A stretch of 64,000 bases of DNA. Origin: Sphingomonadales bacterium (lineage in GTDB: Bacteria; Pseudomonadota; Alphaproteobacteria; Sphingomonadales; Govanellaceae). Both the position numbers and the translations under genes were made by a program. Positions 28,055 to 49,127 of this stretch are shown here, one piece after another; position 1 is the stretch's first letter; each line of letters begins with the position of its first letter. The stretch covers positions 1 to 64,000 of the forward strand of contig JACFMS010000002.1 of NCBI GenBank assembly GCA_019455285.1, given 5' to 3'. The notes beneath the pieces are model-generated. The model was given only the letters and a program-made list of their open reading frames with translations. It was not told the DNA's origin and did no database searches.

Positions 28055-30451
28055 TCATCCCGCGCGCTCCCCTTCACCGCCGCCCGTGCCGAGCACGTCG
28101 CGGGCCTCGTTGAGCATCTGCGCGAAACGGGCAGAGCCGCCGGTGTCGGGGTGCACCTTCTGCATCAGCCGCTTCCAAGCGGCCCGCACTTCGGCGGCGG
28201 TTGCCCCCTCCGAAAGGCCGAGAAGGTCGAGCGCTTCCGCGCGCGTCATTTTGCCGTTGGGCTTTGCGGCGCGCTGACGCGCGCCGCCGGACTGGCGGCC
28301 CCCGTGACCGTTTCTTTGGCCGCCGTCCGATTTGCCGCCCCGCACAAAATACGGGTTGTCGTCGTAGGCTAAGGGCGGCTCCCAATAGAGATGCGGATAG
28401 ATGGCGGCCAGCGACGCGAAGGCGTCGGGGAGCCGCCAGTAATCCACGGGCCGGACGTAGTGCGGGCGGTCGGTGGGGTTCAGGACAATCGCCACGTCGC
28501 GCCCCAAGGCCAGCACCTCGTCGGGCATGAGCAGCGGGCGGCCTGTCTCCCCGTAATTGACGTTCTCGCTTTGGCCACCGCCACCGGGGCCGAAGTTCTG
28601 CCCTTCGCCATGCCCGACCGTCTGCACAGTCACTTTGCCCAAGGTTTCCGAGAGGTAATTGGCGCTCTCAAGATCATTGACGTTGCAAAACCATTTGTAA
28701 GCGCAGTTGGACAGGATGGTGCCCGCCGCCGCGCCGTAGAGGTCTTTGAGCTGGTCGAGACCCTGCACAATCAGGGTGAAGTCGATGCCGTAGCCCGACA
28801 TGGTGGCGATATCGCGGGGTAAATCCTCGATGCGTCCCAGCGCCGGAAACTCGTCCATCAAGATCATGCAGCGGTGCGGCGGACGCCCGCCCAGCGGATA
28901 GCGCTTGAAGGTGTGCATGGCCGCCGTGGTCATGAGCCGGAGCCATGTGCGCTGGGTGTCGATACGGTCGGGCGGGATGACCAGATAGACCGTCACCGCT
29001 TCCCGTATCAGGTCGGCCATGTCGAAGGATGATGTGGCGGTGGCGGCTTTGACCTGCGGGTCGGAGAGGAACTTGGTGGCCTCCGACAGGTTGGACATGA
29101 TGCCCGAATAGGTTTCTTGCGCGAGGTCGAGGTACGGGCTGACCATCTCCCGTATCGCCCCGCCGAAGGCGCTGCTGGCCGCCATCGGCACCAGAAACCT
29201 GTCCGTAAAATCCTTCCGGCTCAGGCTCACAATCTCCCGCGCGCGGGCGAGCGTCTTTTGCTCGCCCGGCTGGTCGGTGATCCACAAGAGCACGGCGGTC
29301 AGCACATTCGCGGCGCTGCCTTGCCAATAGCGGTCTTTGTCGCCGGGGGTCGTTGGACAGACCGCCGCAGCAAGCGCCTGCGCCACCGCGACGGCGTTAG
29401 GGTCGTCGCGCACCAGCACGTCCAGCGGATTGAAGGTCGCGGGCGCAAGGCCGCGCTCCTTGAACGTCTCCGCCAGTTCGCCCCACGGGTTAATGACATG
29501 GACGGCGCTATTGAGGGTGCTGCGCCGGATGCGCGCCGTGATGGCGGCGTTCTCGCCCTTGGGGTCGATGACAATCGCCGAGCCGCCATAGCGCAAGAGC
29601 GTCGGCACGATGACGCGAGTGCCTTTGCCCGTGCGGGTGCGCGCGACAATCAGCGTATGATGTTCGGGCGTCGAGAGCACGGGCGCGCCCGCCTGCTGCT
29701 CGATGGGGATGGCTGAAAGCTCGGGGGCGCTGCTCTTGCCGAAAAACACGCCCCTGTGGCCGTCGTATGCGTCGGCAAGGCTATTGCGCACGTCCGCATA
29801 GCGGGCGGAGCCGTAGTTGTCGGACAGGGCGGGTTTTGGCTTCCGTTTACGCCGTTTGTCCTTCACGAGCCAAATCAGTCCGACAACGCCCACGAGCACT
29901 GCCAGCGGGCCGAACAGGCTGGAAAACAGACTGCCGAGAAAACCGATGCTGTCTCGGAACAGGCCCACGGCCATATCCTTGGCAATCCCTGCAAGCGCGG
30001 TGACGTAGTTCCAAGGCGTCGGCTCTTTGGGTGGGGCGTATTGCGCCCTGAGCGCCGCCATGCGCGCGCGCGCGACGCTGTCGGCGGCGCTGCTCAGCAT
30101 GAGGTCTTGGCCGGTGCCGATGCCCTGCCATTTCCGGCGCAGGGCGGTTTCCGCTGCTTGCAGTTCAGCGGCGCGGTTTCGCCATGCCGCCGCGTCAATC
30201 TCGCCTGCCTTGCGGCGGTATTCTCCCCGCGCCAATTCCACGCGGATATCGGCCAGCAACGCCGCATCGCGGTCAAAGAGGCGTTGCTGCGCGGGCGGGA
30301 GCACCAGCCCGCGCGGTTCGCCGCCCTGCCGGAATATCGGATTGTCCTTCTGCCAGCTTGGCGCGGCTTCTTGCGCGGCGGCGGACAAAGGCGACGCGGC
30401 AAGCGTCAGCGCCATGGCGACGGCCCGCAAGGGCTTCGTCGCCGCGCGCAT
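28055..30451 (-). CDS. VirD4/TraG-type coupling protein with C-terminal J domain
   Basis: A 798-residue conjugative ATPase that would link the relaxosome to a secretion channel. A signal-like hydrophobic N-terminus (AVAMALTLAASPLSAAA) precedes an unusually long, helical, probably periplasmic segment (residues about 30-150) and a transmembrane helix (LAVLVGVVGLIWLV). Walker A is in ARTRTGKGTRVIVP (near 274), Walker B in MILMDEFPALG (near 529), and a DPKGEN motif lies between. After a Gly/Arg linker, the last 65 residues form a DnaJ-like J domain with HPD in MQKVHPDTGGS. It overlaps the upstream 161-aa gene (TGATG). Fusion of a J domain to a coupling protein is unusual in my knowledge of the family. 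Confidence 0.9.
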   Translation of the reverse strand: MRAATKPLRAVAMALTLAASPLSAAAQEAAPSWQKDNPIFRQGGEPRGLVLPPAQQRLFDRDAALLADIRVELARGEYRRKAGEIDAAAWRNRAAELQAAETALRRKWQGIGTGQDLMLSSAADSVARARMAALRAQYAPPKEPTPWNYVTALAGIAKDMAVGLFRDSIGFLGSLFSSLFGPLAVLVGVVGLIWLVKDKRRKRKPKPALSDNYGSARYADVRNSLADAYDGHRGVFFGKSSAPELSAIPIEQQAGAPVLSTPEHHTLIVARTRTGKGTRVIVPTLLRYGGSAIVIDPKGENAAITARIRRSTLNSAVHVINPWGELAETFKERGLAPATFNPLDVLVRDDPNAVAVAQALAAAVCPTTPGDKDRYWQGSAANVLTAVLLWITDQPGEQKTLARAREIVSLSRKDFTDRFLVPMAASSAFGGAIREMVSPYLDLAQETYSGIMSNLSEATKFLSDPQVKAATATSSFDMADLIREAVTVYLVIPPDRIDTQRTWLRLMTTAAMHTFKRYPLGGRPPHRCMILMDEFPALGRIEDLPRDIATMSGYGIDFTLIVQGLDQLKDLYGAAAGTILSNCAYKWFCNVNDLESANYLSETLGKVTVQTVGHGEGQNFGPGGGGQSENVNYGETGRPLLMPDEVLALGRDVAIVLNPTDRPHYVRPVDYWRLPDAFASLAAIYPHLYWEPPLAYDDNPYFVRGGKSDGGQRNGHGGRQSGGARQRAAKPNGKMTRAEALDLLGLSEGATAAEVRAAWKRLMQKVHPDTGGSARFAQMLNEARDVLGTGGGEGERAG

Positions 30452-31679: not shown

Positions 31680-32003
31680 ATGCCAAATCAGGCCGATGTT
31701 CGGCTAAAGGAACCCGCCCATCCGGGCGGCTTCGTGAAGCATGAAGTGCTGAAACCGCACGGCCTGTCCGTGACAGATGCCGCCGAAGTGCTCGGCGTTA
31801 CACGGCCTGCGCTATCTGCCCTGCTTAACGAGCGGGCGCATCTGTCTTCGGAAATGGCGCTTCGGATCGAGAAGGCGTTTGGTGTCTCCATGGAGACGCT
31901 GATGCGAATGCAGAACAGCTACGACATCGCCCAAGCGCGCAAGCGGGCGGGAGACATCAAGGTCGAGCGATATTCAGGACTGAACACGAAGGGGCGGGCA
32001 TGA
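31680..32003 (+). CDS. HigA-family antitoxin-like repressor (no HigB)
   Basis: A 107-residue XRE-type DNA-binding protein of the HigA addiction-module family. HPGGFVKHEVLKPHGLSV, TDAAEVLGVTRPALSALLN (the helix-turn-helix) and RIEKAFGVSMETLMRMQNSY are diagnostic. HigA normally follows higB, a small RelE-like RNase; no such gene is found in the 150 bp before it or after it. It stands 47 bp before the helicase gene of the modification operon, so its likely present role is repressor of that operon. The ribosome site is weak. Confidence 0.85.
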   Translation: MPNQADVRLKEPAHPGGFVKHEVLKPHGLSVTDAAEVLGVTRPALSALLNERAHLSSEMALRIEKAFGVSMETLMRMQNSYDIAQARKRAGDIKVERYSGLNTKGRA

Positions 32004-32049: not shown

Positions 32050-35000
32050 ATGAAACTTCTGCGTAACACCGGAAATGAGCGGGTTATTGATCGGCTGCGA
32101 GAATGGCTTCAGCCGGATTCCGCGGTTGATCTTATGTCGCCGGAGTTCTCGCTCTACGCATTTGCCGAAACCCACGATCATTTGAAGAAGGCCGGGCGCT
32201 GCCGCCTTCTGCTCGGCTCAGACGCAGCCCTTGCTGAAACCCTTTACGGCGGATCAGGTGACATTGCCGCGCGCGGCAAACTCCAAGGGCGTTGGCTGGC
32301 CAAACAAGCCGGTGAATGGCTGAACAAGCACGCCGAGGTTCGGCACGTGCCGACAGCTCCACCTCAATCCATGATCGTCGTTTCTAGCAACGACGACCGC
32401 CACGTCCTGACCGGCACATGCCCGTTCACGACCGAAGGTCTGGGCATCACGCCCGGCGACCAGCTTGGCCTTGTTCAGTTGTCCGATACGGACGCGGAAG
32501 CTGCGGCGTATGCTGATTGGTTTCAAGTGAGCTGGAACGCCCTTAAGCCGACAGGAAGCCAGCTTGCTGCCCGTCTCGACGATGCAGCAAACCAGCGCCC
32601 GCCTTCGCTCCTGTATTTTAAGGTGCTCTACGAGCTTTTCCGCGACATCGGCGAGGAGCTTGACGAGGAGCGGATTATCAAATCCGCCACCGGTATTCGG
32701 AACACCACCGTCTGGAACAAACTTTTCAAGTTCCAGCGAGACGGCGTGGTCGGCGCTATCGACAAGCTAGAGCGCATCGGCGGCTGCATCATCGCCGACA
32801 GTGTCGGCCTTGGCAAAACCTTCGAGGCCCTTGCTGTCATCAAATACTACGAGCTGCGCAACGACCGCGTCCTTGTCCTCTGCCCCAAGCGTCTGCGCGA
32901 TAACTGGACGCTCTACAAGGCCAACGACCGTCGCAATATCCTCGCGTCAGACCGCTTCAACTACGACGTGCTCAATCACACCGACCTGTCTCGCGAGGGC
33001 GGCATGTCGGGTGACATCGACCTTAGCCACGTCAACTGGGGCAATTATGACCTTGTCGTGATCGACGAGTCCCATAACTTCCGCAACAAGGCGACCCATA
33101 AGGATCGCGATACCCGTTACGACCATTTGATGAAGCGCATCATCAAAGCGGGCGTCAAAACCAAGGTGCTCATGTTGTCGGCCACGCCCGTCAACAATCG
33201 CCTTGCCGACCTCAAGAACCAGATCGCCTTTATGACCGAAGGCAATGACCTCGCACTCGCGGGCCACGGCATCCAGAGCATCGAGGCGACCATCCGCAAG
33301 GCGCAGACGCAGTTCAACCGCTGGCTGGACCTGCCCGAAACCGACCGCCGCCCGACGCGGCTGATGGACATGCTCGGCTTCGATTATTTCAAGCTGCTCG
33401 ACCTGCTGACCATCGCGCGTTCCCGCAAGCACGTCCAACGCTATTACGGCACCGAGGAAACCGGCCAGTTCCCAGAACGCTTACGGCCAGTCAACATCAA
33501 GGCCGATGTGGACCTTGCCGGAGAATTCCGGCCTATCCGCGAGATCAACAACGAAATCAGGCGGCTCACGCTCGCTGCCTATGCGCCGCTGCGCTACGTT
33601 CTTCCGCACAAGCAGTCCGTCTATGACGAGAAATACAGCACCAAGATCAGGGGCGGCGAAAGCTTTTTCCGGCAGGTGGACCGCGAGGAAAGCCTCATCC
33701 ACCTGCTTCGCGTCAATATTCTTAAGCGTATGGAAAGCTCCGTCGCGTCCTTCGCACTGACCATCAAGCGCCAGCTTGCGGACGTGAACGCGCTGTTGGC
33801 AAAGCTCGACGCCCACGATGAGAGCGTGGACGAGGTTTCCATCGACGATATTGATATAGACGATCCCGCCTTCGAGGCTCTGCTGATCGGGCGCAAGGTC
33901 AAGGTCTTGCTGCATGACGTGGACCGTGTTCGCTGGCGGCAGGATTTAATCGAGGACCGCAACCGGCTCGCCACGTTGCTATCTGCCGCGCAGGCTGTCA
34001 CGCCGGAGCGCGACGCTAAGCTGGCCGCCTTGCGTGAGGTGATCGCCAGCAAGGTCGCCACGCCGATCAACGGCGAGAACCGCAAAATCCTGCTGTTCAC
34101 GGCCTTCGCGGACACGGCGGACTATCTCTACGCACAGCTTGCGAGCTGGGCAAAGAACGAGCTTGGCCTCGAAACCGCTGTCGTCAGCGGCACGGGAGCG
34201 AACAAGACGACCCTGCGCGGGCTGCGTGGTGACATGAGTTCAATCCTCTCCGCTTTTTCTCCGCGCTCGAAAGAGCGACCGGAGGAAATGAGCGCCGAAG
34301 GCCAGATCGACCTGCTCATTGCCACCGATTGCATTTCCGAAGGCCAGAACCTTCAGGACTGCGATTTTCTCACCAATTACGATATTCATTGGAACCCTGT
34401 CCGGATCATCCAGCGGTTCGGGCGTATCGACCGTATCGGCTCGACCAACACCCGCATCCAGTTGGTCAATTTCTGGCCCAACATGGAGCTGGACGAATAT
34501 CTCGACCTCGAATCCCGCGTCAGCGGGCGCATGGTGCTGCTCGACGTGTCCGCGACTGGCGAGGAAAACGTCATTGAGTTTCAGGCCGGAAACCAGATGA
34601 ACGACCTCGAATACCGCCGCGCCCAACTGCAAAAATTGCAGGACGCTGTGATCGACCTTGAAGACTTGTCGAGCGGCGTCTCCATCGCCGACCTCACGCT
34701 CAACGATTTCCGCATCGACCTTGCCGGATATATGCGCGAGCACCGGGAGCGGCTGGAAAGCCTGCCGCCCGGCACCTACGCCGTGGTGCCCGCACCCGAC
34801 GCATCCGCGCCCGAAAACGATCTGCCTTCCGGTGCCATTTTCTGCCTGCGGGCTGTCGGCGAGGCGGCGGAGAGCGCCGCCGAACCCGGCTATCCGCTGA
34901 GTCCCAACTTCGTTGTCCATGTAAGCGACGATGGCGAAGTGCTGTTGCCTTATACGCAGGCCAAGCAGGTACTCGACCGGCTCAAGAAGGCTGCCATCGG

Positions 35001-35250
35001 GCGCGACCTACCCGATGCCGAAGCCTGCACACGCTTCGACAAAGCCACCCGACACGGGCGCGATATGGAGAATTATCAGGCGCTTCTCGCGCGCGCTGTT
35101 GCCTCCATCGCTGGCAAGAGCGAGGAACGCGCCGTCGCCAGCCTCTTCAGTCCCGGCGGTACCCACGGCCTGAAAGGCGAGTTCGCCGGTATCAACGATT
35201 TCGAGGTTGTCGCCTTCCTTGTCATCCTGCCGGAAAGCGGGGCCGCATGA
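32050..35250 (+). CDS. SNF2-type helicase with PLD-like N-terminal domain
   Basis: A 1,066-residue superfamily 2 helicase. The first 130 residues (MKLLRNTGNERVIDRLREWL, VDLMSPEFSLYAFAE, CRLLLGSD) have the shape of the phospholipase D-like domain found on many prokaryotic helicases, but lack the HxK catalytic pair. The motor has Walker A ADSVGLGKTFEAL (near 252), VVIDESHNFRN (near 338), LMLSATPVNNR (near 376) and motif VI IIQRFGRIDRIGS (near 787). It resembles the RapA/HepA and DrmD groups. It is the first large gene of the modification operon; its stop overlaps the DUF4391 start (ATGA). Likely remodels or translocates on DNA during defence; inferred. Confidence 0.9.
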   Translation: MKLLRNTGNERVIDRLREWLQPDSAVDLMSPEFSLYAFAETHDHLKKAGRCRLLLGSDAALAETLYGGSGDIAARGKLQGRWLAKQAGEWLNKHAEVRHVPTAPPQSMIVVSSNDDRHVLTGTCPFTTEGLGITPGDQLGLVQLSDTDAEAAAYADWFQVSWNALKPTGSQLAARLDDAANQRPPSLLYFKVLYELFRDIGEELDEERIIKSATGIRNTTVWNKLFKFQRDGVVGAIDKLERIGGCIIADSVGLGKTFEALAVIKYYELRNDRVLVLCPKRLRDNWTLYKANDRRNILASDRFNYDVLNHTDLSREGGMSGDIDLSHVNWGNYDLVVIDESHNFRNKATHKDRDTRYDHLMKRIIKAGVKTKVLMLSATPVNNRLADLKNQIAFMTEGNDLALAGHGIQSIEATIRKAQTQFNRWLDLPETDRRPTRLMDMLGFDYFKLLDLLTIARSRKHVQRYYGTEETGQFPERLRPVNIKADVDLAGEFRPIREINNEIRRLTLAAYAPLRYVLPHKQSVYDEKYSTKIRGGESFFRQVDREESLIHLLRVNILKRMESSVASFALTIKRQLADVNALLAKLDAHDESVDEVSIDDIDIDDPAFEALLIGRKVKVLLHDVDRVRWRQDLIEDRNRLATLLSAAQAVTPERDAKLAALREVIASKVATPINGENRKILLFTAFADTADYLYAQLASWAKNELGLETAVVSGTGANKTTLRGLRGDMSSILSAFSPRSKERPEEMSAEGQIDLLIATDCISEGQNLQDCDFLTNYDIHWNPVRIIQRFGRIDRIGSTNTRIQLVNFWPNMELDEYLDLESRVSGRMVLLDVSATGEENVIEFQAGNQMNDLEYRRAQLQKLQDAVIDLEDLSSGVSIADLTLNDFRIDLAGYMREHRERLESLPPGTYAVVPAPDASAPENDLPSGAIFCLRAVGEAAESAAEPGYPLSPNFVVHVSDDGEVLLPYTQAKQVLDRLKKAAIGRDLPDAEACTRFDKATRHGRDMENYQALLARAVASIAGKSEERAVASLFSPGGTHGLKGEFAGINDFEVVAFLVILPESGAA

Positions 35251-36017
35251 CGGCGGGTGCAGGTTTTCTTACCATCGTTAACGCGCTGGGGCTTCCGCCC
35301 GGCGCGCGCGTTGATGCGCGTGTGCCCAAAAAGCTGCTGGTCGAACAAAGCGCGCCGACCGCCGCCGACAAACGCGCCATTCAGGATGGCATCGACGAAC
35401 TGCAATGGTTTGCCGCGTGCAAGCCCGCCACCATCGGTGTGCCGAGCTTCGCCGACGATACCCGCGAATATCTTGAGATTGCCGTTATTGGCTGTGCTTT
35501 CCGTCCCGGTGCCAAGGCTGCTCGGCTCACCGAGCTGATCCACCGCGCCATTCCCTATCCGGTGCTGCTTATCACCGCCGACGAGAACGGTCTTGCCGTG
35601 TCGGCGGCGCACAAGCGCCATGCGCAAAATGAAGCGGGCCGCACGGTGATCGAGAATGTCATCGTAGTCAGCGGCCTCCGCGCTGACGCGGTAGATACCG
35701 TGCAAGTCGCGTTTCTGAAAAGCCTTGCGCTGGTGCAGCAGCCACGCGCCGACTTGTACGCCCTTTATGCGGGATGGATCGCCCGGATTGAGGCCGTAAA
35801 CGCCGCCCGCCTGACGGGTGCGTTCGCCGCGACCGACGATCAGGAAGTCATTGACCGCCGCCGCGCCGCTCTCGACGCACATCTGCGGCTCACCAAAGAA
35901 ATCGAAGGTCTGCGCGCCAAGGCCAAGCGCGAGAAGCAGCTTAGCCGCCGCGTAGACCTGAACCTCGAAATCCAACAGCGCGAGGCTGACCTCGCTGCCT
36001 ATGCAAACCAACTGTGA
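35247..36017 (+). CDS. DUF4391 family protein
   Basis: A 256-residue protein recognised as DUF4391 from its N-terminal half: LPPGARVDARVPKKLL, IQDGIDELQWFAACKPATIG and EYLEIAVIGCAFRPGA. The C-terminal 60 residues are a charged helix (HLRLTKEIEGLRAKAKREK), probably coiled coil. Members are typically found beside helicase and DNA methyltransferase genes and have no established activity. Here it starts inside the helicase stop (ATGA) and precedes mod, so it is translationally coupled to the defence operon. Plausibly an adaptor between helicase and methylase; inferred. Confidence 0.78.
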   Translation: MTAGAGFLTIVNALGLPPGARVDARVPKKLLVEQSAPTAADKRAIQDGIDELQWFAACKPATIGVPSFADDTREYLEIAVIGCAFRPGAKAARLTELIHRAIPYPVLLITADENGLAVSAAHKRHAQNEAGRTVIENVIVVSGLRADAVDTVQVAFLKSLALVQQPRADLYALYAGWIARIEAVNAARLTGAFAATDDQEVIDRRRAALDAHLRLTKEIEGLRAKAKREKQLSRRVDLNLEIQQREADLAAYANQL

Positions 36018-36040
36018 CTCCAAGGGGGAATCCATCTCAC

Positions 36041-38023
36041 ATGTCTGAAATCAAGAAACTCGTTTTGGATGACCCTGCAACCAAGAGCGCCGACATTGTG
36101 ACCGGGAATGTCGAGGCCCTGAAAGACCTGTTCCCCGAAGCCTTCGAGGAAGGGAAAATCGACTTCGACGTGCTCAGGCAACTGCTGGGTGCTGGCGTCG
36201 ATGAAAAGGACGAAAAATACGGACTGAACTGGCATGGTAAGCGCAAAGCGAGGCAGATCGCGCTGACGCCATCCACCGGGACACTGTTGCCGTGCCCGGA
36301 TGAAAGCGTCGATTGGGACACAACGCAGAACCTGATGATTGAGGGCGACAACCTTGAGGTGCTCAAGCTCTTGCAAAAGAGCTACGCAGGCAAGGTTAAG
36401 CTCATCTACATAGACCCGCCCTATAACACCGGAAAGGAGTTTATTTATCCTGACAGATTTCAAGATAATTTAGAGACATATCTTCAATACACGGGGCAGA
36501 AGGGTGCAGACGGCTTTCGGACAACTAGCAATACGGAGAGTCACGGGAGGTTTCACACCAACTGGTTGAATATGATTTATCCGAGACTCAAGTTATCGAG
36601 AGCATTACTTTCGGACGATGGGGTTATTGCGATTAGCGTTGATGAGAACGAAATCGACAGGCTACGAGCAGTGATGGCTGAAATATACGGGGAAGAGAAC
36701 TTCGCTGCGCAAATCACTGTCCAAAGCAATCCCCGTGGAAGGCAGTCCGATACGTTCTTTGCTACCGTCCATGAATATCTCTTAGTTTATGCCAAAAGCA
36801 GAGAAAGTGGCATTATAGGGGGCGAAGCTCTGAACGATGCTCAACGGGCCGAGTTTAAGTATTCTGACCCCGATGGCAGGGCATATCGACTCTTAGGCCT
36901 TCGCCAACGCGGCGCTGCGTCGCTTCGCAGCGACCGGCCAGATATGTATTTCCCGATCTACGTGAACTCGACAACGTCAGAAGTATCGCTTGAGCCTAAG
37001 GAGGGTTTTGACCACGAGGTTCTCCCGCGCAAGTCTACTGGCGAAGATGGACGGTGGATGTGGGGCAAAGAGAAATGCGCTAAAGACATTGGTTTCATCG
37101 TTGCCAGATTGATCGAGCGTCGTGGTGAATATGACCTGTTTGTTAAAGATTATCTCGAAAAGAACGGTGAAGAACGCTCTCGGAAATTTAAGACTATTTG
37201 GGATGACAAAAAGCTGAACACGCAAAATGGAACCCAAGAAGTGAAGGCACTACTTGGATCAGGCGCAATGTCATTCCCGAAACCAGTCGCGTTGTTGAGG
37301 GACGTGATTCAGCTTGGCGCTGAGCGTCACAGCCTGATCCTTGACTTCTTTGCGGGGTCAGGGACGACTGGCCACGCCGTTCTTGAAGAAAACGCGAAAG
37401 ATGGCGGCAGCAGAAGGTTCATTCTTGTCCAGCTTCCCGAACTACTCGACCCCGCCAACAATGACCAGAAGTTGGCAGTCGAGCTTTGTGACACGCTTGG
37501 CAAGCCGCGCACTATCGCGGAAGTGACGAAAGAACGTCTGAGGCGGGCTGCCAAGAAAATTAAAGACGATTTCCCTCTCTTCAAAGGCGACATGGGATTC
37601 AGGAATTACAAGCTCGCTCAATCTAACATCGTCGCATGGGAGCCGGAACCGTCCAATCTCGAAAGCACCTTGCTCGCCAATGCCGAACATCTTGTAGCGG
37701 GTCGCACTGAGCGGGACGTGCTCTATGAGCTGTTGCTGAAGCTGGGCCTCGATCTGTGCGTTCCCATCGAGCGGAAGGACATTGCCGGGAAGGCCGTCCA
37801 TTCCATTGGTGGCGGCGCGCTTATCGTTTGCCTCGCTGATGGCCTCACCAAGGACACTGTCGAAACCGTCGCCAACGGTATCGTCGCATGGTGGAAGGAG
37901 CTTGCTTCCGCCGTCGATACCCGCGTCGTGTTCAAAGATTCCGGCTTCGCCGATGATGTAGCTAAAGCCAACATGGCGGCGATTCTCAACCAGAACGGTA
38001 TCCTCGACGTGAGGAGCCTGTAA
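36041..38023 (+). CDS. Type III-like DNA methyltransferase (Mod)
   Basis: A 660-residue beta-class amino-methyltransferase: the catalytic DPPY motif in LIYIDPPYNTGKEF (near 124) precedes the SAM-binding LDFFAGSGTTGHAV (near 436), with the target-recognition region between. This order and size match Mod subunits of type III restriction systems, which methylate adenine on one strand. The start ATG 36041 (MSEIKK) follows GGGGGA; a GTG overlapping the previous stop is an alternative. The middle (about 36,430-37,340) is clearly more AT-rich than both ends, as if the recognition domain had been exchanged. It overlaps the next gene by one base (TAATG). Confidence 0.92.
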   Translation: MSEIKKLVLDDPATKSADIVTGNVEALKDLFPEAFEEGKIDFDVLRQLLGAGVDEKDEKYGLNWHGKRKARQIALTPSTGTLLPCPDESVDWDTTQNLMIEGDNLEVLKLLQKSYAGKVKLIYIDPPYNTGKEFIYPDRFQDNLETYLQYTGQKGADGFRTTSNTESHGRFHTNWLNMIYPRLKLSRALLSDDGVIAISVDENEIDRLRAVMAEIYGEENFAAQITVQSNPRGRQSDTFFATVHEYLLVYAKSRESGIIGGEALNDAQRAEFKYSDPDGRAYRLLGLRQRGAASLRSDRPDMYFPIYVNSTTSEVSLEPKEGFDHEVLPRKSTGEDGRWMWGKEKCAKDIGFIVARLIERRGEYDLFVKDYLEKNGEERSRKFKTIWDDKKLNTQNGTQEVKALLGSGAMSFPKPVALLRDVIQLGAERHSLILDFFAGSGTTGHAVLEENAKDGGSRRFILVQLPELLDPANNDQKLAVELCDTLGKPRTIAEVTKERLRRAAKKIKDDFPLFKGDMGFRNYKLAQSNIVAWEPEPSNLESTLLANAEHLVAGRTERDVLYELLLKLGLDLCVPIERKDIAGKAVHSIGGGALIVCLADGLTKDTVETVANGIVAWWKELASAVDTRVVFKDSGFADDVAKANMAAILNQNGILDVRSL

Positions 38024-38538
38024 TGAGCACGGATCGTTTCCTCACCTTCGCCTACGGCTCCAACATGCCCGCCGCCCGCCTGCGCGAGCGGTGCCCATCC
38101 GCGCGCGCAATCGGCATTGCCGAATTACCCGGCCATGAATTGCACTGGCACAAGCGCAGTCGGGACGGGTCGGGCAAGTGCGATATTATCGCCAGCGATG
38201 CCGTCGATGTTTCTGTGTTCGGCGTGCTCTATGAGATCGCAGCGCAAGAGAAACGCGCGCTTGACCGCGCCGAAGGCTTGGGTGCCGGTTACGAAGAAGT
38301 CGCGATCGAGGTTCTGTGCGGCGGCAGTCCGATAACAGCCAAGGCATATAGAGCGACCGATACCGATCCCGCGCTTCGCCCCTATACATGGTATCGCGCC
38401 TTAGTCATCGCGGGCGCGCGGGAACACGGGCTTCCTGCGTCCTATATCGTCGGACTTGAATCCGTGCCCGCCGACGAGGACGAAAACCGCGCACGCCACG
38501 ATGAGCACATGGCTTTGATCGCGGAGGTACGGGCATGA
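38023..38538 (+). CDS. Gamma-glutamylcyclotransferase-like protein in the defence operon
   Basis: A 171-residue protein with the AIG2/gamma-glutamylcyclotransferase fold signature: the substrate-loop motif FAYGSNMPAARLRERCP at the N-terminus and GLGAGYEEVAIEV, with a Glu in the place of the catalytic acid. The family removes gamma-glutamyl groups as 5-oxoproline from peptides or amines. It overlaps mod (TAATG) and res (ATGA), so it is an integral operon member rather than an insertion. Its role among DNA enzymes is unknown; it could act on a small signalling molecule, on a peptide or protein, or have lost catalysis. Confidence 0.82.
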   Translation: MSTDRFLTFAYGSNMPAARLRERCPSARAIGIAELPGHELHWHKRSRDGSGKCDIIASDAVDVSVFGVLYEIAAQEKRALDRAEGLGAGYEEVAIEVLCGGSPITAKAYRATDTDPALRPYTWYRALVIAGAREHGLPASYIVGLESVPADEDENRARHDEHMALIAEVRA

Positions 38539-41528
38539 AACTGCATTTCGAGCCGAACCTCGACTATCAGCACACCGCGATCGAATCCGTCTGCGACCTG
38601 TTTCGCGGGCAGGAGATCAACCGCACCGAATTTACCGTCACCCGCCAAGCTGGCGGTGGCGCGCAGCAGGAGCTTGGGCTTGTCGAAAACGCCCTCGGTA
38701 TCGGCAACCGGCTGACGCTGCTCGACGACGAGATCATTTCTAACCTGAATGAAATCCAGCTCAAGAACGGCCTGCCGCCATCTGCAAGCCTCGCCTCCGG
38801 TGACTTCACCGTGGAAATGGAGACGGGCACCGGAAAAACCTATGTCTATCTTCGCACGATCTTCGAGCTGAATAAACGGTTCGGATTCACGAAATTCGTG
38901 ATCGTTGTGCCGTCCGTGGCCATCAAGGAAGGCGTCTATAAAACGCTTCAAATCACCGAAGAGCATTTCAAGGGCCTCTATTCCGGCCAGCCCTTCGACT
39001 ATTTCCTCTATGATTCATCGAAGCTCGGGCAAGTGCGCAACTTCGCCACCAGCCCGACCATTCAAATCATGGTCGTGACAGTGGGCGCGATCAACAAAAA
39101 GGACGTGAACAACCTCTACAAGGATAGCGAGAAAACAGGCGGTGAAGCGCCCATCGACCTTATCCGCGCCACGCGCCCTGTCATTGTCGTAGACGAGCCG
39201 CAGACCGTGGACGGCGGCCTTGAGGGACGCGGCAAAGAAGCCCTCAGCGCCATGAACCCGCTCTGCACGCTACGCTACTCCGCAACCCATGTGGACAAGC
39301 ACCATATGGTTTACCGGCTAGACGCGGTGGACGCCTATGAGCGCAAGCTGGTCAAGCAGATCGAAGTGGCCTCGCTCGAAGTCGAGGGTGGGCATAACAA
39401 AGCCTACCTGCGTTTTCTCTCTGCCAGCAACAAAGGCGGTGCCGTGACTGCCCGCGTCGAGATGGACGTGCAGCAGGGCGGACAGGTTCGCCGGAAGGAA
39501 GTCACCGTTCAGGATGGCGATGACTTGGAGGATACGACAGGTCGGGCCATCTACAAGGATTGTCGCATCGGCGAAATTCGCGTGGCGGGTAAAGATTCAC
39601 TGCTCGAAGTGAAAACAGCCGGATCAGAATCCTTCCTCGCCATGGGACAAGCCATCGGCGACGTTGACCCCGATGCCATCAAGCGACTGATGATCCGTCG
39701 CACCATCACCGAGCACCTTGAGAAAGAACGACGCCTAGCGCCGCTCGGCATTAAGGTGCTCAGCCTGTTTTTTATCGACGCCGTGGAGCATTATCGTTCC
39801 TATGACGAGGATGGAAACGCGGTGAAAGGCAAATATGCGACGATCTTCGAGGAAGAATATCGCCGCGCCGCCAAGCTTCCCGAATATGCCAGCTTATTCA
39901 AGGAAGTGGACCTTACTACCGACGCGGAAGAAGTTCACGACGGCTATTTCTCCATCGACAAGGCCAAGCGGTGGACCGACACCGCCGAGAACAATCAGGC
40001 CAATCGCGATAGTGCCGAGCGTGCCTATAACCTCATCATGAAAGATAAGGAGAAGCTGCTGAGCTTCGACACGAAGCTGAAGTTCATCTTCTCTCACTCG
40101 GCACTGAAAGAGGGCTGGGATAATCCCAACGTGTTTCAGATTTGCGCGCTGCGCGAAATCGGCACCGAGCGTGAACGCCGCCAGACTATCGGGCGCGGCC
40201 TGCGCCTCTGTGTCAAATCTGTCGGCCCCGAAAAAGGGCATCGGGTGCGCGGTTTCGAGATTAACACGCTGACGGTAATCGCCACCGAGAGCTACGAAGC
40301 CTTCGCCGAAAACCTGCAAAAAGAGATCGAGGCCGATACCGGCATCCGTTTTGGTATCGTCGAGAAGCACCAGTTCGCGGCTATCTCTGTCCAGCAAGAG
40401 GACGGTACCCTAGCTATGCTGGGGTTCGAGCAATCCGCCGCGATCCACGAATATCTCAAAGGCGCTGATTTCATCGACGCCAAAGGCAAAGTGCAGGACA
40501 AACTGCGTACGGCGCTGAAAGAAGGGACGCTGACGGTCCCTGACGAGCTTGCTGCGCACCTGCCGCAGATCAAGGAAGTCCTGCGCAAAATCGTAGGGAA
40601 ACTCGACATCAAGAACGCTGACGACCGCAAGGCCGTCCGCGTGCGCAAGGAAGTCCTGCACAGCGCAGAGTTTCAGGCGCTATGGGATCGCATCAAACAC
40701 CGCACGACCTATCGCGTTCATTTCGACAACGCCAAGCTGATCGAGGATTGCACCAAGGCAATTTCCAGCGCGCCACCCATCACCAAGGCGAAGGCTGTCA
40801 TTCGCAAGGCTGACCTCGCCATCGGTCAAGGCGGCGTAATTGCTACCGAAACCGCTACGTCCGGCCCCGTCACCATCGAGGAAGGGGATATTGCCCTCCC
40901 TGACGTGCTGACTGATTTACAGGACCGGACCCAGCTGACTCGCCGCAGCCTTGTCACCATCCTGACCGAGAGCGGCAGGCTTGGCGATTTCAGGCGTAAC
41001 CCTCAAGCCTTCATCGAGCTGGCGGCAGAAACCATCAATCGCACCAAGCGCCTCGCGCTCGTGGACGGCATCAAATACCAGCGGATCGGCGACGATCACT
41101 TTTATGCGCAGGAGTTGTTCGAGCAGGAGGAGCTGACCGGCTACCTCAAGAATATGCTTCAAAACACGCAGAAATCTGTGTTCGAGCATGTCATCTACGA
41201 TTCCGGCGGCGTCGAGCGCACCTTCGCCGAACAGCTCGAAAAGAATGAGGCGGTGAAAGTCTACGCCAAATTGCCCAGTTGGTTCAAAGTTCCCACGCCG
41301 CTCGGCACCTACAATCCCGATTGGGCTGTGCTGGTGCAGGTGGACGGCGAGGAACGCCTCTACTTCGTTGTCGAAACCAAGGGCAGCCTGTTCACCGACG
41401 ATCTGCGCGACAATGAGGCCGCGAAAATTGCTTGCGGCGAAGCGCATTTCAAGGCGCTCGCAGTTGACGAGAATCCGGCCCGTTACGTCAAAGCCACCAA
41501 GATCGACGACCTCATGGAGCATTGCTGA
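38535..41528 (+). CDS. Type III-like restriction subunit (Res): helicase with PD-(D/E)XK nuclease
   Basis: A 997-residue DEAD-like ATPase with a nuclease tail. Walker A is FTVEMETGTGKTYVYL (near 94), motif II reads VVDEPQTVDGG (near 219), RYSATHV follows, and motif VI is RQTIGRGLRL (near 551). The C-terminus has NPDWAVLV...FVVETKGSL (Asp near 927, Glu-x-Lys near 948), a complete PD-(D/E)XK active site. The combination and length match type III Res, which cuts after ATP-driven communication between two head-to-head sites. It starts inside the cyclotransferase-like stop codon. In ordinary type III systems res directly follows mod; here one gene separates them. Confidence 0.92.
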   Translation: MKLHFEPNLDYQHTAIESVCDLFRGQEINRTEFTVTRQAGGGAQQELGLVENALGIGNRLTLLDDEIISNLNEIQLKNGLPPSASLASGDFTVEMETGTGKTYVYLRTIFELNKRFGFTKFVIVVPSVAIKEGVYKTLQITEEHFKGLYSGQPFDYFLYDSSKLGQVRNFATSPTIQIMVVTVGAINKKDVNNLYKDSEKTGGEAPIDLIRATRPVIVVDEPQTVDGGLEGRGKEALSAMNPLCTLRYSATHVDKHHMVYRLDAVDAYERKLVKQIEVASLEVEGGHNKAYLRFLSASNKGGAVTARVEMDVQQGGQVRRKEVTVQDGDDLEDTTGRAIYKDCRIGEIRVAGKDSLLEVKTAGSESFLAMGQAIGDVDPDAIKRLMIRRTITEHLEKERRLAPLGIKVLSLFFIDAVEHYRSYDEDGNAVKGKYATIFEEEYRRAAKLPEYASLFKEVDLTTDAEEVHDGYFSIDKAKRWTDTAENNQANRDSAERAYNLIMKDKEKLLSFDTKLKFIFSHSALKEGWDNPNVFQICALREIGTERERRQTIGRGLRLCVKSVGPEKGHRVRGFEINTLTVIATESYEAFAENLQKEIEADTGIRFGIVEKHQFAAISVQQEDGTLAMLGFEQSAAIHEYLKGADFIDAKGKVQDKLRTALKEGTLTVPDELAAHLPQIKEVLRKIVGKLDIKNADDRKAVRVRKEVLHSAEFQALWDRIKHRTTYRVHFDNAKLIEDCTKAISSAPPITKAKAVIRKADLAIGQGGVIATETATSGPVTIEEGDIALPDVLTDLQDRTQLTRRSLVTILTESGRLGDFRRNPQAFIELAAETINRTKRLALVDGIKYQRIGDDHFYAQELFEQEELTGYLKNMLQNTQKSVFEHVIYDSGGVERTFAEQLEKNEAVKVYAKLPSWFKVPTPLGTYNPDWAVLVQVDGEERLYFVVETKGSLFTDDLRDNEAAKIACGEAHFKALAVDENPARYVKATKIDDLMEHC

Positions 41529-41529
41529 C

Positions 41530-42033
41530 ATGGGCGATGTTCCCGCTGACATCTGCGACGGCATTTGGGATGGTGAATGGATAAGTTGGGATGAGATTAA
41601 CCAGCAAATCCAGTACAAGGAATGGCGGGCCCGCTATCCCAATGCTGACCTGTCGCTTGTACCGATCTTTGAATCGTTGATCGGTACTGCCGAAGAATAT
41701 TACCAGCTCACCGGCCGACACCTCCAAGTGTATGGCGATATAGGTGAACTTTATGGGGCCATTACCCATGGCATAAAACTGCATCGGAATTATGCTCAGG
41801 GGTCTGATGGACGGCTTGGCAACGATTTAGTAGAAGTGAAAACGATCACACCTTTCAAGAGCTGCGATGTCGTTGAGATCAACATGGATCGAAACTTCAG
41901 CAAGGTCTTGATCGTGAAGATTAATTGCGATTTTGAAGTGTGGGGTAAGCTGATTGACCGCAAGGCGCTTCCCGCAGGGAAAAAGCGGGGAAATCGCTTG
42001 TGCATCAACTGGGCGCAAGTCGAAGCTAAATAG
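41530..42033 (+). CDS. Small protein with possible PD-(D/E)XK nuclease motif
   Basis: A 167-residue protein starting one base after the res stop: MGDVPADICDGIWDGEW to RLCINWAQVEAK. The segment RLGNDLVEVKTITPF followed by VVEINMDRNFSKVLIVKIN has the D...ExK spacing of a PD-(D/E)XK core. The N-terminal helices include ESLIGTAEEYYQLTGRHL. No known restriction-system family is recognised with certainty. Strict coupling to res makes it the last member of the defence operon. It could be an accessory nuclease or a DNA-binding cofactor. Confidence 0.6.
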   Translation: MGDVPADICDGIWDGEWISWDEINQQIQYKEWRARYPNADLSLVPIFESLIGTAEEYYQLTGRHLQVYGDIGELYGAITHGIKLHRNYAQGSDGRLGNDLVEVKTITPFKSCDVVEINMDRNFSKVLIVKINCDFEVWGKLIDRKALPAGKKRGNRLCINWAQVEAK

Positions 42034-43324: not shown

Positions 43325-44620
43325 CTAGCGTTTGGGGCGGTTCGGCTTGTCCGTCTGCTTGGCTTTGATGGACTGCACCTCTTTGGCCTTGGCTTCCAGC
43401 TCGTCGATTTCGGCGTTCATTTCGGCATGCATCGCATCCCATCCGCCGATGCCCATAAGCACGCGGTCGGCATGTTTGATGGTGTTCACATGCCCATAGT
43501 GCTGCTCGATCATCTTAACGGAGGTGCCCATTTGTTGGGCGAGGATATAGACATCCACCCCGGCGGAGAGCCGGAGCGTGGCGTAGGTATGGCGGAAGCA
43601 ATAGGTCGTGCGGGGAATGCCGCTCGGACCCTCGCGAAGGTCGGTGTATTTCAATAACTCTTCGACGGTATCCCGATAGAGCCATTTTGCCGGTTTGCCG
43701 TTGATAATCGTAAAGACATGGTCGTCCGGCTTGGTCGCCTTGGAAAGCTCGCGGATGCGGTCGAGGTATTTTGCGACACTGATCGGAGCAATCAGCTTGC
43801 GGGTTTTGCCCTTGCCCTGAACGTAGAGGACAAGGATTTCCTGTCCGTCTTTGTCTTTTGCGGTGGTGATGTCCCGCCAGCGCAGGTTCTTCGCTTCCGG
43901 CGGGCGCATCCCCGTGTTGCACATGATGAGAATGAAATTGTAGCAGACTTGGCGATACCAGACGCCCTGCGGCGTGGTCGCCTCCTTCATCCACTTGCGG
44001 CCTTTGGTGTGCAGCTTGCGGTATTCCTCAAGCGTGAACTCGTCACGGCGGTTCGATTTGAGCTTTGGCATGCCCTCAAAGCGATGATGCGCGGGAACAT
44101 ACCGCTTGCTGATCGCAAAGTTCATGATGGCTGCGAAAATGGTCATCTCGATGCGAATCGTGGAATCGCTGATGACGCTCTTGCGGCGGCCTTCGCCGTT
44201 TTCGCGCCGCCACAGCGGATATTCTGACCAGCGGTCTTGCGTAACCAGATGAATCTGTGTGCTGCCGACATAAGCCTTGAGAGGCCCGTCGATCTTGCTT
44301 CTGATATTTTTGCAGCGGGCTTGGCTGACCTCGCCCGCGTTGGCGCGCCGCTGTTGGGCGTCGGCATATTCCTCCGCCACCTGCGAGAAGGGGCGGTTGA
44401 ATACGGGAACATCGTGTTTCACCCGAAAACGGATATCGGCATACTCGTCCATCGCGCGGTCACGCGCGGTCTGTCGGTCTGCCGTCCGTAGCGAGATCGT
44501 CTTGTAGCGGTCTTCGTTCTGGATTCTGATCCGGCAGTAATACTGGTCGTGCCCGACGTCGCCGCGTCGGAAGATGATAAGGCCGGGCTTGATCTGCTCT
44601 TTATCGAGGATGAAACTCAT
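43325..44620 (-). CDS. int: Tyrosine-type site-specific integrase
   Basis: A 431-residue phage-type integrase that should insert and excise the element at the tRNA-Gly 3' end. The catalytic domain shows Arg in CNTGMRPPEAKNLRW, the RHTYA box in TYCFRHTYATLRL, and the Tyr nucleophile in MIEQHYGHV. An N-terminal SAM-like DNA-binding region with YADAQQRRANAGEVSQARCK precedes it. The start is ATG 44618-44620 (MSFILDKEQ), with CGGAG upstream; another ATG lies five codons earlier. The gene abuts attR, the usual position, and reads away from it. Paired CTGTGCAG boxes lie 15 bp upstream, so the integrase may repress itself. Confidence 0.95.
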   Translation of the reverse strand: MSFILDKEQIKPGLIIFRRGDVGHDQYYCRIRIQNEDRYKTISLRTADRQTARDRAMDEYADIRFRVKHDVPVFNRPFSQVAEEYADAQQRRANAGEVSQARCKNIRSKIDGPLKAYVGSTQIHLVTQDRWSEYPLWRRENGEGRRKSVISDSTIRIEMTIFAAIMNFAISKRYVPAHHRFEGMPKLKSNRRDEFTLEEYRKLHTKGRKWMKEATTPQGVWYRQVCYNFILIMCNTGMRPPEAKNLRWRDITTAKDKDGQEILVLYVQGKGKTRKLIAPISVAKYLDRIRELSKATKPDDHVFTIINGKPAKWLYRDTVEELLKYTDLREGPSGIPRTTYCFRHTYATLRLSAGVDVYILAQQMGTSVKMIEQHYGHVNTIKHADRVLMGIGGWDAMHAEMNAEIDELEAKAKEVQSIKAKQTDKPNRPKR

Positions 44621-44634
44621 TTCTCCGCTTCCCA

Positions 44635-44703
44635 CTGTGCAGAAACTGTGCAGATTGGCGACGTAAGCGGTTGATCTTCCGTGCCTGTGTAGGTTCTGTG
44701 TGG
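44635..44703. promoter_or_regulatory. Paired CTGTGCAG boxes, candidate integrase arm sites (right)
   Basis: CTGTGCAG at 44635 and 44646, and degenerate copies CTGTGTAG at 44685 and CTGTGTGG at 44696. Each pair is 11 bp apart, matching the left-end pair at 19850/19861. The first pair overlaps the integrase promoter region. Confidence 0.55.
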
Positions 44704-44785: not shown

Positions 44786-47700
44786 TCACCCGATATTCAG
44801 CTTGTACCAGAACACCCGCTCGCGGCCGCCGGCGTCGACCACCACCAGCTTGATGATCCACACGTTCGCGCCGGCAAAGAGCCCGGCGTCGATGCGGCCG
44901 ATCTCGCCCTCCGTCACCGGCTTTTTCAGCTCGATGCCGGCGCTTTTCCAGGCGGTGGGCGTCTCGCCGGCGCCGATCTCCACATAGGCGCGTTTGAACT
45001 GGCGGGCGTCGGCGCTGCCCTTGACCGCCAATTCCACCTTGCCGCCGTCCTGGACGATGGCGACGCCGGAAATTTCCGAGCGGATGAAGAAGTCGGGGCT
45101 GACCGACAACGCGGCGCGGGCGTCAACCAGGCCATAGCCGGTCAAGTTATCCTTGCCCGGGGTTTCGATGTCGCGCGCCGATTGCAGGAGGATATTGCGC
45201 AGCTCCGCCGCCGTCAGCTCGGGGTTCTTCGACAACACCAAGGACGCCACGCCCGACACAATCGGCGCGGCGAACGAGGTGCCGCCGGCGCGGTAGTAGC
45301 GCTTGTCCTCGCCCACATAAGCGTCGCCCGGCTTGTAGTCGACATCGGGAATGTCGCGCATGGTGTCGGTGCGGCGCGCCCGCAGGCTTAAGATGTCGAG
45401 GCCCGGCGCGGCGATGTCCACATCCTTGCCCCAGTTGGAGAACGGCGTGCGCTTGTCCTGCCTGTCGGTGGCGGCCACGGTGATCACGCTGCCGTGGGCG
45501 GCGATGCCGTAGTTGTCCACCTTCTGGCCCTGATTGCCCGCCGCCGCCACCAGAAGCACGCCCTTGGATTCGGCGTATTGCACCGCGGCGCTTTCGATCG
45601 CCGTCACTTCCGGGCCGCCGACACTTAAGTTGATGATGCGCGCGCCATTATCCACCGCATAGACGATGGCCTTGGCGATATAGGAAGCGCGGGTGTTGCC
45701 GAAGCTGTTCAAGCCCCGCAGCACCATGAGGCGGGCGTGGCTGTTGATGCCCGCCATGCCGACGCCGTTGTTGCTGTGAGCGGCGATGATGCCCGCGGTG
45801 ATGGTTCCGTGGCCATCGAGATCCCAGGGTGTGTTGTCGTTTTCAAAGAAGTCCCAACCGATGACGTCATCGACATAACCGTTTTTGTCGTCATCGATGC
45901 CGTTACCGGGAATTTCCTTGGCATTGCGCCACAGATTATTCCAATCGAAATCGAGATGGTTCCAATCGAGGCCCGTATCGATCACCGCAACCACCACCGG
46001 CGATGGCGATTTGCCCAACAGCTCCCAAGCGGAATCCTTCTCCGCCGTCAGGCCGACGCGCTTTAGAGCCCACTGGTTATCGAAATTCTGGCCCCAGGCG
46101 CCCTTGCCCAAATAAAGCGGATCGTTGGGCGCTTCCTCCTTGATACGGCAATAGTTGGTTTCCGTCTGCACCACGTTTTCGTATTGCTTGAGGATGTTGA
46201 CCACCTGGCCTTCGGCATTCTTGACGTAAGTTAAGGTGACGAAGGTCTGGCCGCCGATGGTGTTGACGTCCGAGACATGCTTGCCCATTTTCTGGATGAT
46301 GTCCTTGACGATGGGAGCGCTCTGCGACCCCGCCACCTGCACGTTCTTGCTGGTTTGCGTGGTGACGTCGATATCAGCCTGCAACAGCGGCTTGGCCGAA
46401 CCGCTTTTGGCGGTGTATTTACGCGCCTTATCGACCATGCACTTCAACGTGCCGCAGCCCTCCTTCAGCCATTTCTTGGCGCCCGGAGAGAGGGCGTCCA
46501 TGGGCACATCCAGCGCCAGATCGCCGTTTTCATCGGTGCGGCCCTGAATGGGGTCCTGGTCATGATCGCTCGTTGTATCCTTGGCGACGCCGGGGCCCGG
46601 CGCCACGCTCGCTAACTGCGACGGCATGGCGAGTTTGACGTTCTCGCCCGCCACCGCCTCCACCGCCGTGCCGCCGCCATCGGCCAGCACCGTGCGCTTG
46701 GCCTTGATCACCACCGGCACCGTCGGCTCATCGCGCGGATCATCGCCGCCATCCGTCGGCTGATCCTTGGGATCGTCCTGATCGCCGCCGTCAGTGGTGG
46801 GAATGCCGCCGGGCAGATCCCGCGGATCATCGCCATCATCGGGCGTCGATTTTTTCGGACAATCCTGGCGGCGGTGCGCCACGTCTTCATCGATCTGACG
46901 GATCTGCTGCGCCAAATTTTCGATCATCTCCTCGGATGAGCCGGACGTATTGATCAATTTTTCCAACTGCGACGTCAGATTGTCGCGATGCTGCAACAGG
47001 CTGGCGATCCAGCGCTCGCACGGCTCATCGGCATCGCGCGGATCATCGCCGCCGCCGGACGGTTGATCGCGCGGATCATCGCCGGGAGTCCCGCCGCCCG
47101 GGCCATCGTGCGGATCATCGCCGGGCGCGCCGCCGCCGGGTTTCGGCTGATCGCCGCCACCACCAGGCCCATCACTCGGGTCGTCGCCAGGCGCGCCGCC
47201 GCCGGGGCCATCATGCGGATCATCACCGCCGGGGCCGATGGGCGTGGACGTCGGATTGCCAGGCCGGTATTCGCACCAGGTGGGTGAGTCGGACGCGATC
47301 TGCAGCGCGCCGAAGCTGCCGGGGGTGTAGGAAATCGGCTGCGAAGTGTCGGGCATATAGCCGACGCCGCTGCGATTGCCTTGTCCGAACGGCGGGCATT
47401 GCAGCCCTTCCTCCTTCTTCATTTTGTCGATCATCTCATGCAGATCGCGCTGTACTTGCTCTGCGCCGTAGCCAGGGCTCCAGATCATATCGCGACTATT
47501 TCCGGTGCCGAACGTATCTCCCGCCGCGCATGCGCTGCGAATGCAGTCGCGCAGGCAGGCTTGATACTTGGCCCACCAGTATTCCGCCTGCGCCCGGAAG
47601 TTGTTGGCCCTGGCGGTCTGCTGCTGCGCGCCAATATCGGCCGCTACGGCGGAGGCATCCTTTTGCTCCGCTTCCTGCCGCGATTTATTGGCGTCGCGCT

Positions 47701-49051: not shown

Positions 49052-49127
49052 GGCGACCCCCTCACCCATATTGAGCATATGTGTCATGAGCGGCAGCAGA
49101 GTGACTGCCGCTCACGTCATGGCTTCA

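Follow-up and report, generated by a model that had tools for sequence, protein, structure and literature searches.

A gene for a gamma-glutamylcyclotransferase (GGCT)-like protein lies between mod and res of a type III restriction-modification (R-M) operon in the window, the 64,000-nucleotide stretch of DNA analyzed here. Very probably, this gene is optional cargo that is kept by selection in a variable mod-res slot of a four-gene type III cassette. The best explanation of the observations as a whole, to which we give an even chance, is that this optional cargo works as a second-layer accessory enzyme.

The embedded gene and its host operon

The operon is encoded on the plus strand in the order HKD/SNF2 helicase, DUF4391, Mod, GGCT, and Res, with GGCT as the inserted member. 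The first cassette gene (32050–35250) encodes an SNF2-type helicase with an N-terminal HKD/PLD-like region (Pfam SNF2-rel_dom and Helicase_C; PADLOC HKD+Snf2, 1e-117), and the second (35247–36017) encodes a DUF4391 protein (Pfam DUF4391, 2e-70), a conserved member present in most cassettes. These are followed by mod (36014–38023), encoding a type III DNA methyltransferase (Pfam N6_N4_Mtase, 9e-35; PADLOC MTase_III, 3e-203), and, beyond the GGCT gene, by res (38535–41528), encoding the type III restriction subunit with helicase and endonuclease domains (Pfam RE_endonuc, 1e-36, and ResIII; PADLOC REase_III, 1294 bits). At the sequence level, the operon thus combines a beta-class methylase with a Res protein composed of an SF2 helicase and a PD-ExK endonuclease, as expected for type III R-M, and the motifs DPPY and FAGSGTT in Mod and GTGKT and NPDW...ETKG in Res can be read directly. 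All four junctions overlap by one or four bases (at 35247, 36014, 38023, and 38535).

A sequence-only reading of the window had described a GGCT-like open reading frame overlapping both of its neighbors, and its coordinates, frame, and TAATG and ATGA overlaps were all exact. The gene occupies positions 38023–38538 on the plus strand and encodes 171 amino acids. The 3' end of mod reads ...AGCCTGTAATGAGC, its TAA stop codon sharing a single base (38023) with the ATG of the GGCT gene (TAATG), and the stop codon of the latter overlaps the res start codon as ATGA (38535–38538). The family assignment was likewise upheld: the protein matched the Pfam families AIG2_2 (PF13772; E 5e-15, 56 bits against a curated cut-off of 27) and GGACT (PF06094; E 6e-9, 37 bits against a curated cut-off of 22.8), and a phmmer search of PDB sequences returned human GGCT (E 2e-12). 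An AlphaFold2 model was predicted with high confidence (pLDDT 95.7), and the best Foldseek match of this predicted structure was again human GGCT (3cry_B, E 2e-15, TM 0.84), with gamma-glutamylamine cyclotransferase (GGACT; 3jub/1vkb) and ChaC as weaker matches. Neither the GGCT nor the DUF4391 protein had a match among the PADLOC models, and the GGCT had none in NCBIfam. With human GGCT (C7orf24; PDB 2i5t, 3cry, and 2rbh) the window protein shares the fold, the YGSN loop, and the position of the catalytic Glu; it differs in being bacterial and encoded inside an R-M operon, and the two are 27–28% identical.

The structure prediction that the sequence-only reading had proposed as a check gave a confident GGCT fold. 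Sequence alignment placed the catalytic Glu elsewhere than in the GYEEV motif that had been suggested as the target for mutation. In the phmmer alignment to 2i5t/3cry, the catalytic Glu of human GGCT, E98 (replaced by Gln in the 3cry mutant), corresponds to E84 (codon 38272–38274, plus strand) within LDRAEGLGAGY ('RAEG'). This residue is the same in every sequence of two alignments, one of 14 and one of 26, whereas both Glu residues of GYEEV vary across the aligned GGCTs and were ruled out as the active site. The YGSN motif of the substrate-loop signature (Y11, G12, S13, and N14; codons 38053–38064, plus strand) is also invariant in both alignments, as are the FxYGSN loop as a whole, L80, and Y90, while D81 and Y109 are invariant or nearly so. 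Because these active-site residues are kept, the protein looks like an active enzyme, and it is likely a cyclotransferase that converts a gamma-glutamyl substrate to 5-oxoproline. The invariance of the catalytic Glu further indicates that catalysis is probably what selection acts on.

Several other features of the window lie near the operon. Just upstream is a gene for a HigA-family HTH protein (31680–32003, plus strand; NCBIfam antidote_HigA, 1e-26), which was not detected in homologous cassettes and was absent by tblastn from locus L328, introduced below. A VirD4/TraG-type coupling protein carrying a DnaJ domain at its C-terminal end (28055–30451, minus strand) and a tyrosine integrase (43325–44635) are also encoded, which suggests that the operon is carried on a mobile element. 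A short open reading frame just past res (about 41560–42033, plus strand) has a weak match to DUF6998 (E 0.011) and could be a further cassette gene, and positions 44786–49087 of the minus strand encode a 1433-residue protein that contains repeats rich in Gly, Pro, and Asp and has a subtilase domain at its C-terminus.

A variable slot between mod and res

A scan of GTDB genomes with an alignment of the helicase identified at least 541 confirmed relatives, and the best 80 were taken for locus analysis. Among these 80, the order helicase, DUF4391, Mod, Res is kept across phyla wherever the contig is long enough, the phyla including Pseudomonadota, Bacillota, Chloroflexota, Planctomycetota, and Verrucomicrobiota. 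A related four-gene cassette without GGCT, whose Res is 35% identical, is also borne by E. coli plasmids. The slot is bounded on the left by the conserved C-terminus of Mod (VRSL-stop) and on the right by the start of Res (MKLHFE), and both ends of the junction could be read in 69 cassettes, including that of the window. The distance from mod to res falls into two ranges with none between, 5–169 bp in 42 of the 69 and 511–4704 bp in the other 27. Cargo is present in these 27 (about four in ten), and no gene lies between mod and res in the 42.

Elsewhere in the same genome set, cargo was less frequent, with 8 of 77 HKD-DUF4391 junctions (Fisher p 7e-5) and 14 of 75 DUF4391-Mod junctions (p 0.009) filled, these p values serving as a guide only since related cassettes are not independent. 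A set of viral contigs had cargo in 13 of 40 Mod-Res, 1 of 24 helicase-DUF4391, and 9 of 21 DUF4391-Mod junctions; as the last is filled at least as often as Mod-Res in this set, the excess of cargo at Mod-Res relative to DUF4391-Mod does not hold generally. Based on Pfam matches, Mod-Res cargo includes RhuM, Fic/Doc, SoFic-like Fic, YhcG PDDEXK, Bro-N, SLFN_AlbA_2, PLD-like, and UvrD-like helicase proteins, DarT (DarT-DarG) with Macro, AAA_21 with DUF4276, and AAA_13 (PrrC/RloC type). The neighboring gaps hold Zeta toxin, GmrSD_N, and DUF4357 genes. Many of the slot cargo genes are of toxin or abortive-infection type, and some are not recognized toxins.

A GGCT gene occupies this same slot in at least four genomes, namely that of the window, a Rhizobiales genome (L049), a Pseudomonadota metagenome-assembled genome (L064), and a genome of the same taxonomic order as the window (L328). 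The sequence-only reading had named confinement of the gene to this one locus as counting against it, and the gene is not so confined, with the known GGCT-bearing cassettes numbering only four. The Rhizobiales cassette also contains a GmrSD_N (DUF262) gene in its DUF4391-mod gap (L049:13995-15932). All four cassettes retain the ATGA overlap with res. The L328 locus matches the window in all five genes and in their order; the whole operon is 88–94% identical and the GGCT 80–81%. Between these two loci, the dN/dS of the GGCT gene is 0.126, compared to 0.05–0.11 for the other operon genes, making it the fastest evolving of the five and nonetheless constrained. Recurrence in four genomes together with a dN/dS of 0.13 rules out a chance insertion or a decaying gene.

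In a tree of 53 GGCTs, constructed without the L328 protein (81% identical to the window GGCT), one clade (100/95) unites the proteins of the window, L049, and L064, and it is nested in a broader group to which the fusion proteins also belong. Supported branches of the Res tree, in contrast, set L064 apart from the window and L049. This splitting of the GGCT carriers implies that the gene moved between cassettes or was lost several times, independently of the cassette. The specificity region of Mod (residues 240–420) is only 13–33% identical between the window and L049 or L064; a tie between GGCT and DNA specificity was ruled out, as the gene is kept beside Mod proteins with unrelated target regions.

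No GGCT is present in 66 of the 69 cassettes with a readable mod-res junction. That homologous operons might do without the gene had been named beforehand as a result that would count against its involvement, and at the sequence level this is what was found; GGCT is therefore not a required part of restriction or modification, and its candidacy as a core component was rejected. The GGCT-less cassettes nearest by Res, L331 (85%) and L058 (about 78–80%), both have a broken res gene and for that reason are weak evidence for function without GGCT. In L331 (9401-14060), res is interrupted by an IS1380 insertion, and in L058 (16971-19999) it is in two frames owing to a frameshift, possibly an assembly error. 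More distant GGCT-less cassettes (L052, L053, L055, and L075) have full-length res matches.

We infer that GGCT is co-translated with Mod and Res. The sequence-only proposal of joint expression with mod and res and of a part tied to defense draws support from the overlaps, from the gene's recurrence in four genomes, and from the defense- or toxin-type genes that occupy the slot in other cassettes. Among the specific roles raised in that reading (processing of a signal, modification of Res or Mod, inhibition of self-damage), the survey of cassettes bears on the last, which we consider here as inhibition of self-damage or antitoxin-like chaperoning of Res, by binding rather than catalysis. The tight overlap with res and the place before it would let GGCT be made before Res; we nevertheless regard this role as very unlikely, as the scarcity of the gene among the cassettes weakens any function in self-damage protection, its invariant catalytic Glu suggests that catalysis is selected, and DNA was cut by a preparation of Eco86II, a type III enzyme from the group discussed below, and the only components detected in that preparation were Mod and Res (PMC8259958).

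Relatives outside the slot and possible roles

Solitary GGCT relatives, at about 40–50% identity, are scattered, and many are found in ordinary chromosomal settings. Among those whose loci were taken with wide flanks, none had the Mod, Res, or helicase of the cassette beside it. The GGCT family was matched in 9 of 14 control genomes, and this housekeeping occurrence of the fold, together with the ordinary contexts of several relatives, means that a link to defense is not general.

Some relatives do adjoin conflict genes, and we list these as individual cases. In L031 (G001:C9) and L330 (G844:C44), the GGCT gene directly follows HipB-HipA, overlapping hipA in L330, where HipA was recognized by its likeness to the L031 protein; both loci adjoin apparent conjugation genes, and one of the two genomes belongs to the genus of the window. 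A single 707-residue open frame in L313 (9867-11990; G712:C36) combines HEPN_RES_NTD1, RES, and GGCT domains. In L015, the gene lies 16 bp after DUF6119; in L312, it adjoins a PHP/AAA_21 ATPase, with similar-looking proteins in L030 and L161; and in L029 and L329, it precedes one and the same unnamed CxxC protein. In L012, L013, and L161, GGCT follows, as part of one fusion protein, an unnamed domain about 325 residues long that has a zinc ribbon. Pfam provided no name for this N-terminal domain, relatives of which occur on other plasmids in proteins not annotated as GGCT, and a scan for further viral copies of the fusion returned only L161 itself.

The abundance of solitary chromosomal relatives is compatible with a metabolic passenger, an ordinary GGCT that came to lie between mod and res, plays no part in defense, and is kept for gamma-glutamyl or glutathione turnover. 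In the host genome, a glutathione synthetase is present, the window gene is the only AIG2-type gene found, and neither ChaC nor a second AIG2-type gene was found. The window GGCT would hence be the only recognized gamma-glutamylcyclotransferase of its host, which keeps this reading alive. We consider it unlikely all the same, given that the other cargo of the mod-res slot is mostly defense- or toxin-like, that the slot GGCTs form a clade of their own located only between mod and res in genomes of different lineages, and that exact overlaps tie the gene to the translation of res.

Alternatively, the enzyme might act on Res, Mod, or a partner toxin by cleaving off a gamma-glutamyl or isopeptide tag, thereby switching the system or shielding it from modification by phage. 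The fold includes GGACT, represented by the weaker Foldseek matches 3jub/1vkb, which acts on side-chain-linked gamma-glutamyl groups, and some GGCT relatives are joined to toxin-like proteins by fusion or by gene coupling. In addition, bacterial AIG2 genes are found next to genes for amide-bond ligases (PMC2588565), and GGCT occurs in the amidoligase modules of phages (PMC11945000). Against this, the structure most similar in fold is human GGCT, which is of the amino-acid type, and not GGACT, no amidoligase was seen in the operon, and most cassettes persist without the gene, so that removal of a tag appears improbable. The proposal that the enzyme is an effector whose target is a gamma-glutamyl metabolite, and not a remover of a protein modification, is tentative and rather doubtful.

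By analogy with the other slot occupants, we favor an accessory enzyme that stands outside the restriction reaction; whether its second-layer role is linked to defense we judge to be evenly balanced. Under this model, GGCT would be translated together with Mod and Res from the overlapping genes and would take no part in DNA recognition or cleavage. Once infection is sensed or restriction fails, it would act on a metabolite or a modified protein, splitting a gamma-glutamyl substrate to yield 5-oxoproline, as a second layer comparable to PrrC, RhuM, or Doc in R-M operons. Candidate substrates are gamma-glutamyl metabolites and gamma-glutamyl-type protein tags. A wider and more doubtful conjecture is that this GGCT lineage forms a portable immunity module that plugs into unrelated operons (mod-res, HipBA, HEPN-RES, and DUF6119) and destroys a gamma-glutamyl metabolite or removes a tag in the response to phage.

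A search of the open-access literature returned no paper linking GGCT or AIG2 to R-M, toxin-antitoxin systems, or anti-phage defense. Accessory genes are swapped at the cargo sites of a widespread type III R-M family, most prominently between mod and res, and listing the contents of these slots is a direct route to new effectors. GGCT is their least expected occupant, tying small-molecule chemistry to restriction, and if it turns out to work as an effector or to strip tags from proteins, it would bring new chemistry to bacterial immunity.

Comparison with known systems

The window operon has an optional gene inside an R-M operon that alternates with toxin genes, with 27 of 69 slots filled, and in this it is PrrC-like; because GGCTs are not generally toxic, we have not filed the gene as an R-M-embedded toxin. 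Toxins embedded in R-M operons are known to provide a second layer (PMC3710099), as for PrrC (PMC12707154). PrrC in the EcoprrI type IC locus and the RhuM, Doc, and HEPN proteins of R-M operons (PMC3710099, PMC12707154) share with the window the arrangement of an optional embedded gene with alternatives at one place. They differ in that these proteins are nucleases or protein-modifying toxins, while GGCT is a cyclotransferase of small-molecule type with no toxicity known. The PADLOC candidate system C3a139 (HKD+Snf2) provides the model matched by the first gene of the window cassette (1e-117), whereas the GGCT and DUF4391 proteins fall outside the PADLOC models.

Among type III systems, the operon resembles the third group as that group has been described. 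Systems of this group, such as Eco86II and BspHIV, have an extra gene for a helicase-like ATPase 5' of mod, followed by mod and res (PMC8259958). In the window cassette, too, mod is preceded by a gene for a helicase-like ATPase, a linkage that is consistent across phyla; the cassette differs in its embedded GGCT, a component not described for the third group (PMC8259958). Accessory genes inside R-M operons are a known kind, and it is the occupant, a GGCT, and the mapping of the slot within this cassette that appear to be new.
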